Below are positions 7,061 through 9,410 of a stretch of DNA of 39,565 bases, in pieces. The stretch is from an uncultured Bacilli bacterium (lineage in GTDB: Bacteria > Bacillota_I > Bacilli_A > RF39 > UBA660): positions 1 to 39,565 of the forward strand of contig CALVVR010000013.1 in assembly GCA_944363915.1 (NCBI GenBank). The letters run 5' to 3'. The notes beneath the pieces were generated by a model. It was not told the DNA's origin. It did no database searches and saw only the letters and a list, made by a program, of their open reading frames with translations. The translations under genes and the position numbers were made by a program. Position 1 is the first letter of the stretch. Every line of letters starts with the position of its first letter.

Positions 7061-7090
7061 TTGACAAACATATATTCGCTATGATATGAT
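7061..7090 (+). promoter_or_regulatory. promoter of the ORF6N array
   Basis: TTGACA (7061-7066) and TATGAT (7085-7090) are separated by 18 bases, a good sigma-A-type promoter 48 bases before the first ORF6N start codon. Confidence 0.7.
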
Positions 7091-7118
7091 TGACTTGTAG
7101 GAGTTAATCATATTTTTA
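7085..7118 (+). promoter_or_regulatory. hairpin with T-run overlapping the -10 (operator or attenuator)
   Basis: TATGATTGACT (7085-7095) and AGTTAATCATA (7102-7112) form an 11-bp stem with one wobble, followed by TTTTT. Its left arm is the -10 hexamer itself, so as DNA it could be a repressor site. The T-run also allows a terminator reading. It lies directly upstream of the ORF6N array. Confidence 0.45.
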
Positions 7119-7137
7119 TTATCTAGGGATGTTAGTA

Positions 7138-8031
7138 ATGAATGAAATAATTGTAAAAAATGAAGTAAATATTGAAAATTTAATTTATGAAATAAGAGGA
7201 GTTCAAGTGATGCTAGATAATGATTTGGCCTTGTTATATCAAGTTGAAACAAAAAGAATAAATGAAGCAGTTCATAGAAATAAAGAAAAGTTTCCAGAAA
7301 GGTTTAGCTTTAGAATTTCTGAAGAAGAATATAATCTTTTGAAGTCGCAAATTTCGACTTCAAAAGGTGGTTCAAGAAAAGGACATACTGTTTTTACTGA
7401 GCAAGGAATAGCTATGCTTGCAACAATATTAAAGACAAAAGTAGCTACCCAAGTAAGTATAAAAATAATGGATGCTTTTGTAGCAATGCGAAAATATATA
7501 TCAACTAATTTAATTGAACAAAAATATATAAATGATTTAGTATTAGAAGATCATGAAAAGAATAAAACATTAGAATTATCATTTGCTAAATTTGAAGAAA
7601 AAAAGAAAGTTAACGAAATCTATTTTAATGGTCAAATTTATGATGCTTATTCTAAAATTCAAGAAATATTTGACGAAGCCACTAAAGAAATTATAATTAT
7701 TGATAGTTATGCTGATTATACTTTACTTGATATTATTAAAAGACTAAAAATAAAAGTAATAATTATAACAAAACCTAATAATTTGTTAACTAAACAAGAT
7801 ATTATGAAATATAACAAACAGTATAATAATTTAAAAGTTGTATATGATAATACCTTTCATGATCGTCATTTTATTTTAGATAACAAAATAGTTTACCATT
7901 GTGGGGCTAGTATAAATAGAATCGGTTATAAAACTTTTTCTGTTACTTTAATTAATGATGAAGAAATATGTCAAACATTAATCAACAAAGTTTATAAGAT
8001 TATAAAAGAAAGTGAGTTAAAACATGAATGA
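7138..8031 (+). CDS. ORF6N-domain protein with PLD-like C-terminal domain, copy 1
   Basis: A 297-residue protein. An ORF6N-type DNA-binding domain (about 1-115; IYEIRGVQVMLDNDLALLY, VFTEQGIAMLATIL) is typical of phage antirepressor/KilA-N-associated proteins. A helical linker (about 116-165) and a C-terminal domain (about 165-295) follow; the latter's FHDRHFILDNKIVYHCGAS resembles the phospholipase-D-like H-x-x-x-x-x-x-D...GS core in degenerate form. ATG 7138 is used because AGGGA (7125-7129) precedes it and the sequence then aligns with copies 2 and 3. The ORF6N part carries the palindrome 7337-7365. Its stop overlaps copy 2 by 8 bases. Such proteins occur in prophages and islands; the true activity is unproven. 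Confidence 0.85.
   Translation: MNEIIVKNEVNIENLIYEIRGVQVMLDNDLALLYQVETKRINEAVHRNKEKFPERFSFRISEEEYNLLKSQISTSKGGSRKGHTVFTEQGIAMLATILKTKVATQVSIKIMDAFVAMRKYISTNLIEQKYINDLVLEDHEKNKTLELSFAKFEEKKKVNEIYFNGQIYDAYSKIQEIFDEATKEIIIIDSYADYTLLDIIKRLKIKVIIITKPNNLLTKQDIMKYNKQYNNLKVVYDNTFHDRHFILDNKIVYHCGASINRIGYKTFSVTLINDEEICQTLINKVYKIIKESELKHE
7337..7365. repeat. intragenic palindrome, ORF6N copy 1
   Basis: An 11-bp perfect arm TTTTGAAGTCG and its reverse complement around CAAATTT. It lies inside the codons for KSQISTS of the ORF6N domain. It corresponds by alignment to the palindromes at 8232, 9137 and 9268 although the arm sequence differs. Confidence 0.85.
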
Positions 8032-8938
8032 AATAATTGTAAAAAACGAAGTAAATATAGAGAATCTAATTTATGAAATAAGAGGAATTCAAGTAATGTT
8101 GGATAGTGATTTAGCCAAACTTTATGAATGCGCCAACGGAACTAAAACAATTAATTTAGCTGTTAAAAGGCATATTAATAGATTTCCTAAACGCTTTATG
8201 TTTCAATTATCAAAAGACGAATATTATAAAATTCTAAGGTTTCAATCTGAAACCTTAGAACTAGAACAAGGGAAATATTCTAAATATTTACCGTATGCAT
8301 TTACCGAACAAGGAGTAGCAATGTTAGCCACTGTTCTTAGAACTAAAGTGGCTGAAAAAGTAAGTATAAAAATAATGGATGCTTTTGTAACAATGCGAAA
8401 ATATATATCAACTAATTTAATTGAACAAAAATATATAAATGATTTAGTATTAGAAGATCATGAAAAGAATAAAACATTAGAATTATCATTTGCTAAATTT
8501 GAAGAAAAAAAGAAAGTTAACGAAATCTATTTTAATGGTCAAATTTATGATGCTTATTCTAAAATTCAAGAAATATTTGACGAAGCCACTAAAGAAATTA
8601 TAATTATTGATAGTTATGCTAATTACACTTTACTTGATATTATTAAAAGATTAAATATAAAAGTAATAATTATAACAAAACCAAATAATTTATTAACAAA
8701 ACAAGATATTATAAGATATAGTAAACAATATAATAATCTAAAAGTTATATATGATAATACTTTTCACGACCGTTATTTCGTTTTAGATAACAAAATAGTT
8801 TACCACTGTGGAACTAGTATAAATAGAATTGGTTATAAAACATTTTCGATTACTTTAATTAATGATAAAGAAATATGTCAAGCATTAATTGGCAAAGCTT
8901 ATAAAATCGTAAAAGAAAGTGATGTAAAATATGAATGA
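8024..8938 (+). CDS. ORF6N-domain protein with PLD-like C-terminal domain, copy 2
   Basis: A 304-residue paralogue of copy 1. The first 22 residues and the C-terminal half are nearly identical, while the middle of the ORF6N domain differs (LAKLYECANGTKTINLAVKR instead of LALLYQVETKRI). A 261-base tract (8360-8620) matches 7453-7713 of copy 1 with one substitution, the mark of recent gene conversion or duplication. The PLD-like motif reads FHDRYFVLDNKIVYHCGTS. It overlaps copy 1 and copy 3 by 8 bases each (ATGAATGA), so translation is probably coupled. The palindrome 8232-8260 sits in the ORF6N part. Confidence 0.85.
   Translation: MNEIIVKNEVNIENLIYEIRGIQVMLDSDLAKLYECANGTKTINLAVKRHINRFPKRFMFQLSKDEYYKILRFQSETLELEQGKYSKYLPYAFTEQGVAMLATVLRTKVAEKVSIKIMDAFVTMRKYISTNLIEQKYINDLVLEDHEKNKTLELSFAKFEEKKKVNEIYFNGQIYDAYSKIQEIFDEATKEIIIIDSYANYTLLDIIKRLNIKVIIITKPNNLLTKQDIIRYSKQYNNLKVIYDNTFHDRYFVLDNKIVYHCGTSINRIGYKTFSITLINDKEICQALIGKAYKIVKESDVKYE
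8232..8260. repeat. intragenic palindrome, ORF6N copy 2
   Basis: Perfect 13-bp arms TTCTAAGGTTTCA / TGAAACCTTAGAA around ATC. They encode part of LRFQSETLE. Confidence 0.9.
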
Positions 8939-9293
8939 AATAATTATAAAAAACGAAGTAAATATAGAGAATCTAATTTATGAAATAAGAGGAGTTCAAG
9001 TAATGTTAGATAGTGATTTAGCTAAACTTTATGAATGTGCTAATGGAACTAAAGATATAAATAAAGCGGTTAAGAGAAATATAGAAAGATTTCCTGAAAA
9101 TTTTATGTTTCAGCTAACAGATGAAGAATATAGTTGTTTGAGGTTCCAAACTGGAACCTCAAATACAAAAGGTGGTAGAAGATACAATCCATATGTGTTT
9201 ACCGAACAAGGTGTTGCTATGCTAACAACTATTATGTTTCAACTAACAGATGAAGAAATAAAAAACTTTCAAGGTTTCAAGTTGAAACCTTGA
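8931..9293 (+). pseudogene. ORF6N-domain gene, copy 3, truncated
   Basis: The frame encodes 120 residues. Residues 1-101 are a normal ORF6N domain up to VFTEQGVAMLTTI. The frame then jumps to MFQLTDEEIKNFQ, which repeats the sequence found some 43 residues earlier (MFQLTDEEYSC), and it ends at TGA. It therefore lacks the linker and the PLD-like domain and is fused to the start of a fourth, decayed ORF6N segment. Unequal recombination between paralogues at the MFQLTDEE codons is the simplest cause. It may still make a short DNA-binding protein lacking the C-terminal domain, a possible dominant-negative form; that is speculation. Confidence 0.7.
9137..9163. repeat. intragenic palindrome, ORF6N copy 3
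   Basis: Perfect 12-bp arms TTTGAGGTTCCA / TGGAACCTCAAA around AAC, in the codons for LRFQTGTSN. Confidence 0.9.
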
Positions 9294-9410
9294 ACAAAAG
9301 AGGATCTAACATTAAATACTTATTTGTGCTTACTTAATAAGGAAAATCTATGTTTAAAACAATATTAAAATAAAAGTAACTATACAAAATGAATAGGATA
9401 TATTTGTAAT
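9234..9410 (+). pseudogene. decayed ORF6N segment, copy 4
   Basis: After the MFQLTDEE repeat the correct ORF6N frame continues in another phase from 9272 (RFQVETLNKRGSNIKYL, then stop). Beyond it, AAGGAAAATCTATG and AACAATATTAAA at about 9339-9372 still align with the 'EQGIAMLATILK' codons of copy 1 (7402-7439). The reading frame is broken several times. This explains most of the apparently empty stretch 9294-9410. Confidence 0.7.
9268..9294. repeat. intragenic palindrome, decayed ORF6N copy 4
   Basis: Perfect 13-bp arms TTCAAGGTTTCAA / TTGAAACCTTGAA around a single G. The palindrome is intact although the gene around it is broken. Confidence 0.85.

Follow-up and report, generated by a model that had tools for sequence, protein, structure and literature searches.

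ORF6N genes, which encode a widespread family of proteins from bacteria and phages with a predicted DNA-binding ability, carry a palindrome at a homologous place within their own coding sequence, and the bases of this palindrome track residues in the recognition helix predicted for the product of the same gene. The palindromes at this site are real, and the reading of each as a self-encoded site, recognised by the DNA-binding domain of the gene in which it lies, is strongly supported by the sequence comparisons. Judging from these comparisons and a structure model, it is very likely that the palindrome tracks its own gene's helix and that a dimer of the protein binds the gene encoding it, most likely repressing its expression.

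We analysed a 39,565-nt stretch of DNA (the window), which contains four ORF6N copies (Table 1). Copies 1, 2 and 3 score 107, 98.5 and 123.3 bits against the Pfam ORF6N model (PF10543, cut-off 27.8 bits) and are the only three matches in the genome, which is 91.86% complete, while copy 4 is a remnant around its palindrome. An initial annotation had reported one perfect inverted repeat per copy. All four repeats are present where it had placed them, and the arms are indeed perfect in copies 2 and 3 and in the decayed copy 4, but not throughout copy 1, where perfect arms of 12 bp, rather than 11 bp, flank 7 nt and the single mismatch is pair 3 from the centre. Its codon comparisons between copies 2 and 3, in which self-complementarity is kept while the protein changes, were correct on reading the sequence. 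The palindromes sit 210-222 bp past the start codon, and when random synonyms were drawn over the first 110 codons (first 100 for copy 3), arms this long came up once for copy 1 and never for copies 2 and 3 in 1500 draws. A Pfam scan of copies 1-3 returned ORF6N and Phage_pRha only, with no match to KilA-N, to which a remote kinship is possible. Active phospholipase D-type nucleases carry an HxKxxxxD motif; in the PLD-like C-terminal part HDR replaces HxK, and all 28 aligned sequences keep H248, D249 and R250.

Table 1. ORF6N copies, predicted recognition helices and intragenic palindromes, in coordinates of the whole 39,565-nt window (forward strand of contig CALVVR010000013.1).
Feature	Position	Strand	Remarks
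ORF6N copy 1, PLD-like C-terminal part	7129..8031	+	ORF of 300 aa; homologous start at 7141; C-terminal part assigned by the fold of copy 2
Copy 1, predicted recognition helix codons	7249..7278	+	K42, R43, E46, R50 = alignment columns 23, 24, 27, 31; helix by homology to the copy 2 model
Copy 1, intragenic palindrome	7336..7366	strandless	14/15 pairs
ORF6N copy 2	8024..8938	+	304 aa
Copy 2, predicted recognition helix codons (residues 40-49)	8141..8170	+	code residues K41, T42, L45, R49
Copy 2, intragenic palindrome	8232..8260	strandless	13-bp perfect arms, 3-nt centre; encodes residues 70-79
Copy 2, codons K87 and Y88 (alignment columns 54, 55)	8282..8287	+	linked to half-site positions 10 and 8, respectively
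ORF6N copy 3, truncated	8931..9293	+	ORF of 120 aa; runs into the copy 4 remnant
Copy 3, predicted recognition helix codons	9048..9077	+	K41, D42, K45, R49; helix by homology to copy 2
Copy 3, intragenic palindrome	9137..9163	strandless	12-bp perfect arms, 3-nt centre
Copy 4 remnant	9234..9320 (right end approximate)	+	read from the sequence; no Pfam ORF6N match of its own
Copy 4 remnant, palindrome	9268..9294	strandless	13-bp perfect arms, 1-nt centre

The palindrome is a feature of the family. Among 348 ORF6N domains from several phyla and phages (426 matches before incomplete domains were dropped), we observed perfect arms of at least 9 bp at the site in 255, compared to 10 of 1044 synonymous-random versions, and arms of at least 12 bp in 213, compared to 2 of 1044 versions in each of the two control sets, synonymous-random and synonymous-shuffled. 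The comparison of related ORF6N genes with codon-shuffled controls, which the initial annotation had proposed, gives a clear excess. The same DNA core persists whether it is read in one frame (319 genes) or in a second (19 genes), so that selection on the protein alone fails to explain the palindrome, as had been suspected, and is rejected. A dependence on the PLD-like C-terminal part is rejected as well, as mean pairing at positions 2-13 is nearly the same whether that part is long (0.954, 181 genes) or short (0.949, 123 genes). Among the matches listed in the open-access literature we found no earlier report of this intragenic site.

The bases of the half-site are predicted by residues about 25 codons upstream, lying on one face of the predicted recognition helix. 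After dropping seven weakly paired genes and three with a misplaced axis, mutual information between residues and half-site bases singled out alignment columns 31, 27, 23 and 54. In the count tables, Arg31 goes with C3 (284/288) and Asn31 with A3 (46/48); Glu27 with C5G4 (78/79), Lys27 with T5C4 (39/39), Gln27 with C5A4 (122/145) and Leu27 with T5T4 (18/21); Lys23 with G7 (252/252); and Arg54 with G10 (201/203). The link of Lys55 to A8 holds in only 34 of 60 genes and in none of 10 half-sites of second-frame genes, and column 23 outranks column 55 at position 8 in sister pairs. This residue-to-base code is confirmed by independent sister pairs and held-out genes. Across 161 disjoint sister pairs, the code columns ranked top at positions 3, 4, 5, 7 and 10 (p 8e-14 to 7e-27). 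In 43 held-out genes, from which domains with DNA identical to training had been removed although some loci came from genomes already used, 431 of 452 half-site bases were predicted correctly, compared to a mean of 65.1% and a maximum of 75.9% in 5000 re-pairings of sites. The 19 second-frame genes also follow the helix rules, with 38/38, 37/38, 38/38 and 38/38 half-site bases.

In a model of copy 2, built without DNA, the code residues lie on one helix in helix-turn-helix order, and the palindrome codes for a loop of low confidence. The initial annotation had suggested an operator read by each paralogue's own domain, with the palindrome encoding a variable loop of that domain. The first part stands, in that the bases follow the predicted recognition helix, whereas the linked residues lie on the helix and just past the loop, not within the stretch encoded by the palindrome. 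Taken together, model and code suggest that the ORF6N protein is a winged helix-turn-helix dimer whose recognition helix would read half-site positions 3, 4, 5 and 7, with K87 and Y88 of copy 2 associated with positions 10 and 8. The loop probably hosts the site because it tolerates very different peptides. A dimer bound 210-222 bp past the start codon might, with the chances for and against about equal, hinder transcription of its own gene, and the same even weight applies to the consequence that a self-regulating address would then move with the gene, whatever the promoter.

A palindrome could also persist with no protein reading its bases, through a hairpin or cruciform or through template switching between the arms, and the initial annotation had listed an mRNA hairpin and palindrome correction by template switching among its options. 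Such processes would account for arms that pair regardless of the base (3843 of 4044 cells at pairs 2-13), and snap-back copying would yield arms extending far past the core, such as the 26-bp arms of locus L130. However, they predict neither bases that track helix residues about 25 codons away, a pattern that sister pairs and held-out genes show too, nor where most of the mismatches lie, which is at bases for which the residue variant shows no preference. Where column 27 is Arg, 20 of 53 genes are mismatched at position 4, but only 6 of 284 where it is Glu, Gln, Lys or Leu; position 7 is mismatched in 15 of 58 genes with Arg23 but in none of 252 with Lys23. Position 5, which is linked to Arg27, is mismatched in 9 of the 53 Arg27 genes, a result that the simplest reading fails to predict. 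As mismatches concentrate at bases that seem not to be read, hairpin formation and template switching are disfavoured as the main cause, and we regard them as highly improbable; G-T mismatches at pairs 2-13, moreover, are no commoner than A-C (48 and 64), so that the G-U preference of an mRNA hairpin is absent. Template switching may nevertheless lengthen some arms, as in L130.

It is also improbable, if a little less so, that the palindrome is a recombination point at which paralogues swap the region that sets their specificity along with the target that belongs to it. In its favour, identity between copies 1 and 2 falls from 91.7% and 92.9% at the two ends to 61.5% in the middle, and arrays of palindromes with differing cores adjoin some genes. 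The identity breaks in the window, however, flank the palindrome on both sides with none at the palindrome itself, and recombination alone would leave the residue-to-base code unpredicted. The recombination or insertion site proposed in the initial annotation found no direct support; given the palindrome arrays, such a role may exist as a side effect.

The role of the predicted binding by a gene's own protein would most likely be autoregulation, with self-immunity of the BstA/aba type as the main rival. Extra palindromes within 160 bp upstream have the same core as the gene they precede in 11 of 29 cases (5.7 expected, p 0.0035). No more than 28 of 375 genes, however, show an upstream palindrome within 300 bp, so that autoregulation of the classical kind, from an operator at the promoter, is probably not the general rule. 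By analogy with BstA, the protein might instead attack foreign DNA and be switched off by the site in its own gene, which we consider rather unlikely. BstA combines a KilA-N-like domain with an own-locus DNA element, aba, acting only on the cognate protein, yet aba spans the gene start, has terminal direct repeats and no palindrome, according to the part of the study drawn on here (PMC8585504). The window proteins match the defence candidate PDC-S05 of PADLOC (copy 2 matches its profile models at E 1.3e-84 over residues 4-292, and locus L038 matches them too), but PDC-S05 is a defence candidate only. For two Rha genes and one Ant gene of phages LP.2 and F10, a match with at most 2 mismatches was seen nowhere but at the own site, whereas the upstream palindrome copies of some genes suit autoregulation at least equally well. 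An ordinary regulator with many operators was considered and rejected. A search of 141 family genomes with the site pattern gave matches in 43, many of them not self-complementary and many in or beside ORF6N genes; others lie elsewhere, e.g. G069:C11, whose locus (L447) has no ORF6N match, and G122:C1. Orthogonality of tandem copies was also considered and rejected, as none of 35 tandem paralogues have six code bases in common (1.6 expected from matched random pairs) and the three-base core is common to 7 of them (7.1 expected), the difference in sites being not significant.

Similar palindromic sites occur in Bro-N and Rha genes. Perfect arms of at least 10 bp were found in 8 of 29 Bro-N ORFs, with 0.4 expected, and Bro-N thus failed as a negative control. 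After partial Bro-N matches and early stops or duplicates of Rha and Bro-N had been dropped (42 to 34 and 80 to 74 loci), the best helix column in Rha and Bro-N sister pairs (31 and 16) reached p 0.003 to 0.01, uncorrected for about 75 columns x 10 positions, and because these tests are weak the two codes rest on count tables. A clear palindrome was absent in two of seven phage genes examined, mEp460 Rha and F10 antirepressor 49. We suggest tentatively, leaning slightly against it, that a whole winged-helix superfamily from viruses and bacteria (ORF6N, Bro-N, Rha and perhaps KilA-N) could be self-addressed, each gene encoding the target of its protein in the loop of the protein's own DNA-binding domain, with its own gene as the main or only genomic target and a self/non-self tag among mobile elements as the outcome. 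If so, thousands of protein-target pairs would be readable from sequence, giving a recognition code without experiment.

The targets of regulators usually require experiments or regulon reconstruction, but ORF6N genes appear to hold both halves of the pair, so that one can derive a recognition code from many genomes and put it to the test in a single step. If, as is likely, each protein binds its own gene, its target could be read directly from that gene. Abundant proteins of phages and bacteria that often bear the label antirepressor, or have no assigned function, may thereby gain a first function and a tie to self-recognition of the BstA/aba type. The comparisons also show selection on DNA within a coding region that holds a site across a change of reading frame.

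Binding sites inside the gene of the acting protein have precedents. The origin iterons of lambda lie inside the O gene, in a stretch encoding a tolerant part of the O protein, and resemble the ORF6N site in being located in the binder's own gene and in a part tolerant of change; they are, however, replication iterons of one phage group, whereas ORF6N genes carry one palindrome in the DNA-binding domain, across phyla. The nicking origin of plasmid pT181 lies inside repC and is likewise an inverted repeat within a gene whose product, RepC, acts on it, although that repeat is a plasmid origin, whereas the ORF6N comparisons point to neither nicking nor replication. The PDC-S05 models of PADLOC, which copy 2 matches, include no site. 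BstA/aba shares with ORF6N a DNA element within the locus, cognate to the protein, with specificities that vary among homologues, but aba extends over 63 bp that include the gene start, its direct repeats matter, and direct binding is not shown in the part of the source consulted (PMC8585504); ORF6N differs in its palindrome 210-222 bp into the gene and its residue-to-base code, a role in immunity being a candidate. For GntR regulators, the part of the study used here (PMC4494728) describes mutual information between residues and site bases with links of the Arg-G and Asn-A type, as in ORF6N, but for sites near regulated genes obtained via regulon reconstruction, whereas the ORF6N site lies in the gene's own coding sequence.

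Palindromes at this site also occur well outside the window. ORF6N genes were collected from the window's own family and phylum, from 80 loci (whose titles name Bacilli, Clostridia, Bacteroidota genera, Campylobacteraceae, Desulfohalobiaceae, Spirochaetales, Neomarinimicrobiota, one Saccharibacteria MAG and one Nanoarchaeota MAG), from 39 viral contigs and from additional genome searches and sequence stretches, the 426 domain hits yielding 348 distinct full-coverage domains. We found perfect arms of at least 9 bp in 255 of these; of two control sets of 1044 versions each, the one with synonymous codons drawn at random reached this length 10 times and the one with synonymous codons shuffled 21 times. 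Arms of at least 12 bp occurred in 213/348 domains versus 2/1044 versions of either control, and of the shorter N-terminal parts of these domains 1/348 had arms of at least 9 bp. With mismatches allowed, at least eight of positions 3-12 (half-site positions, counted outward from the palindrome centre) were paired in 341/348 domains, including three with a misplaced axis, a looser count made without a shuffled control. By base counts over the set, the most frequent form is AACTTGAGGTCACAA plus its mirror around one central base. One comparison locus (L130) has very long arms of 26 bp, four others (L027, L110, L111, L165) apparently carry two consecutive units within the same loop, and three genomes from the Spirochaetota search (G1058, G1055, G1057) hold up to 18 ORF6N matches per genome.

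In the window itself, the four inverted repeats lie where they had initially been described, but the claim that all are perfect fails for copy 1, in which 14 of 15 pairs match and pair 3 does not. The three Pfam ORF6N matches in the 1.14 Mb genome each hold one window palindrome, and the fourth palindrome lies inside an ORF6N remnant. Arms as long as those observed arose 1, 0 and 0 times per 1500 random synonymous-codon draws for copies 1, 2 and 3. A genome search with the core form of copies 2-4 matched exactly those three copies and, at two mismatches, three other places; the reversed control pattern gave five matches.

Features in the window and in comparison loci (L handles)
Feature	Sequence	Coordinates	Remark
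Palindrome, copy 1	window	7336-7366	
Palindrome, copy 2	window	8232-8260	
Palindrome, copy 3	window	9137-9163	
Palindrome, copy 4	window	9268-9294	
Inverted repeat, 8 bp	window	7084-7091 / 7106-7113	by eye; immediately upstream of copy 1, of another kind than the palindromes
Copy 1 versus copy 2	window	7141-8935	identity 91.7% and 92.9% at the two ends, 61.5% in the palindrome-containing specificity region
Copy 2, C-terminal part	window	8024-8935	weak match to VPA1262 family domain
Palindrome array	L448	799-1184	differing cores, adjoining ORF6N gene
Palindrome array	L450	988-1026	as L448
Palindrome array	L451	1031-1251	as L448
Palindrome array	L465	969-1249	as L448
Palindrome array	L449	1081-2484	as L448
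KilA-N gene of phage mEp460	L652	37157-37966	palindrome ~184 nt into gene

To relate palindrome to protein, we masked the palindrome and asked the remaining residues for their power to predict its bases (337 genes, effective number ~91). The best predicting alignment columns were 31 for position 3, 27 for positions 4 and 5, 23 for position 7 and, downstream of the loop, 54 for position 10; columns 23, 27 and 31 show helical spacing and lie ~25 codons upstream of the palindrome.

Residue-to-base assignments (genes in agreement)
Position	Assignments
3	Arg31, C 284/288; Asn31, A 46/48
5, 4	Glu27, C,G 78/79; Gln27, C,A 122/145; Lys27, T,C 39/39; Leu27, T,T 18/21
5	Arg27, G 42/53
7	Lys23, G 252/252; Arg23, A 35/58
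10	Arg54, G 201/203; Lys54, A 80/92
8	Tyr55, G 189/199; Lys55, A only 34/60

Window copies 1-3, which belong to the training set, satisfy these rules at 35/36 half-site bases and fail only at the base that is mismatched in copy 1. When 161 disjoint sister pairs were compared, the columns named above again ranked top of all columns for positions 3, 4, 5, 7 and 10 (p 8e-14 to 7e-27), and pairs in which only the base changed numbered 0, 2, 0, 0 and 1. At position 8, column 23 outranked column 55. With the rules fixed beforehand, we then turned to 43 held-out genes from Campylobacterota and Spirochaetota searches (median identity to the closest training gene 0.72, some from genomes already used). 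All 43 carried the palindrome, and the six links gave the right half-site base in 86/86, 81/86, 83/86, 82/86, 44/50 and 55/58 cases, versus 60, 35, 76, 80, 37 and 45 for a majority-base rule. In total 431/452 bases were right, compared to a mean of 65.1% and a maximum of 75.9% in 5000 re-pairings (positions 3-5: 250/258 versus 60.6% and 74.8%); for the 26 genes below 75% identity to any training gene the counts were 52/52, 50/52, 50/52, 48/52, 14/20 and 37/40. This residue-to-base code makes it likely that each ORF6N protein binds its own gene.

The structure model of copy 2 (mean pLDDT 79.7, pTM 0.47) has helices at 27-33 and 40-49, ordered as in a helix-turn-helix, with the code residues K41, T42, L45 and R49 on the second and with K87 and Y88 directly before strand 91-93. 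The palindrome-encoded residues 70-79 fall mostly within loop segments (73-79, 81-85) at pLDDT <50. The C-terminal part resembles PLD-like folds, including the archaeal regulators TrmBL2 and TrmB, and has HDR where HxK is expected; the palindrome also occurs in genes lacking this part. A PDB sequence search returned no relative containing the ORF6N part.

In 319 genes the palindrome axis coincides with codon position 1 and in 19 with codon position 2, so that the core GGTCGCAA-N-TTGCGACC encodes R-S-Q-x-A-T in one gene set and V-A-x-C-D in the other: the palindrome is conserved as DNA, not as protein. In the 19 second-frame genes, with their different loop peptide, the helix rules hold at 38/38, 37/38, 38/38 and 38/38 half-site bases (positions 3, 4, 5 and 7) and the position 10 rule at 10/10, the Lys55 rule at 0/10. 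An RNA hairpin would allow G-T mismatches between the arms, yet these were no commoner than A-C (48 versus 64 among 4044 cells). Mismatches at position 4 occur in 20/53 Arg27 genes and 6/284 genes with Glu, Gln, Lys or Leu27, and those at position 7 in 0/252 Lys23, 15/58 Arg23 and 8/14 Gly23 genes, indicating that symmetry is relaxed mostly at protein variants without a firm base preference, which speaks for reading by a protein rather than for a hairpin. Counter to the simplest form of this reading, 9/53 genes with Arg27 have mismatched arms at position 5 too.

Outside ORF6N matches, 109 palindromes of this general form were found in 2.02 Mb of loci versus 1 in simply shuffled loci, and not all resemble family members; several of the tabulated arrays have no recognisable ORF6N sequence around them. 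Palindromes also turned up in Bro-N genes, which had been intended as a negative control; most lie ~160-190 nt from the gene start. On viral contigs at least 10 of 12 positions were paired in 30/34 Bro-N and 18/74 Rha genes (2.0 expected each). Bases again followed residues, at Rha position 5 with column 24 (D to G 24/26, H to C 11/13, N to T 11/11) and Bro-N position 3 with column 33 (R to C 23/23, K to A 9/9), the sister-pair tests being weak in these small sets. In LP.2 and F10, both complete phages, three genes (two Rha, one Ant) have no match to their own site at up to two mismatches other than that site itself. The same is true of the KilA-N gene's palindrome in mEp460. Since this KilA-N gene has a palindrome, KilA-N may belong among the palindrome-carrying families. 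Phage LPM4 has, besides the own site, at least three places that match with two mismatches, one of which precedes the Ant gene by 66 bp. A clear palindrome was absent from mEp460 Rha and F10 antirepressor 49.

As to the effect of binding, autoregulation would be the simplest reading: a dimer bound 210-222 bp downstream of the start codon would impede transcription of the gene. Autoregulation fits with the upstream copies seen in some genes, as 28/375 genes with sufficient upstream sequence have an additional palindrome in the 300 bp before the domain. Of such palindromes no more than 160 bp away, 11/29 have the same core as the gene they precede versus 5.7 expected (p 0.0035). The main alternative is self-recognition as in BstA/aba, where the locus of the protein itself contains a cognate DNA element that shields the encoding phage (PMC8585504). 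The protein of copy 2 also has a match in PADLOC, to the phage-defence candidate PDC-S05.

For novelty, related work was considered (PMC8263062, PMC4257102, PMC4494728). Among the papers listed by full-text searches of open-access literature, none dealt with a palindrome inside the coding sequence of ORF6N, Bro-N or Rha. A protein's site within its own gene is as such already known from Lambda O and pT181. What seems new here is an own site inside the DNA-binding domain, across a family and with a readable residue-to-base code, a combination of which we know of no earlier case.
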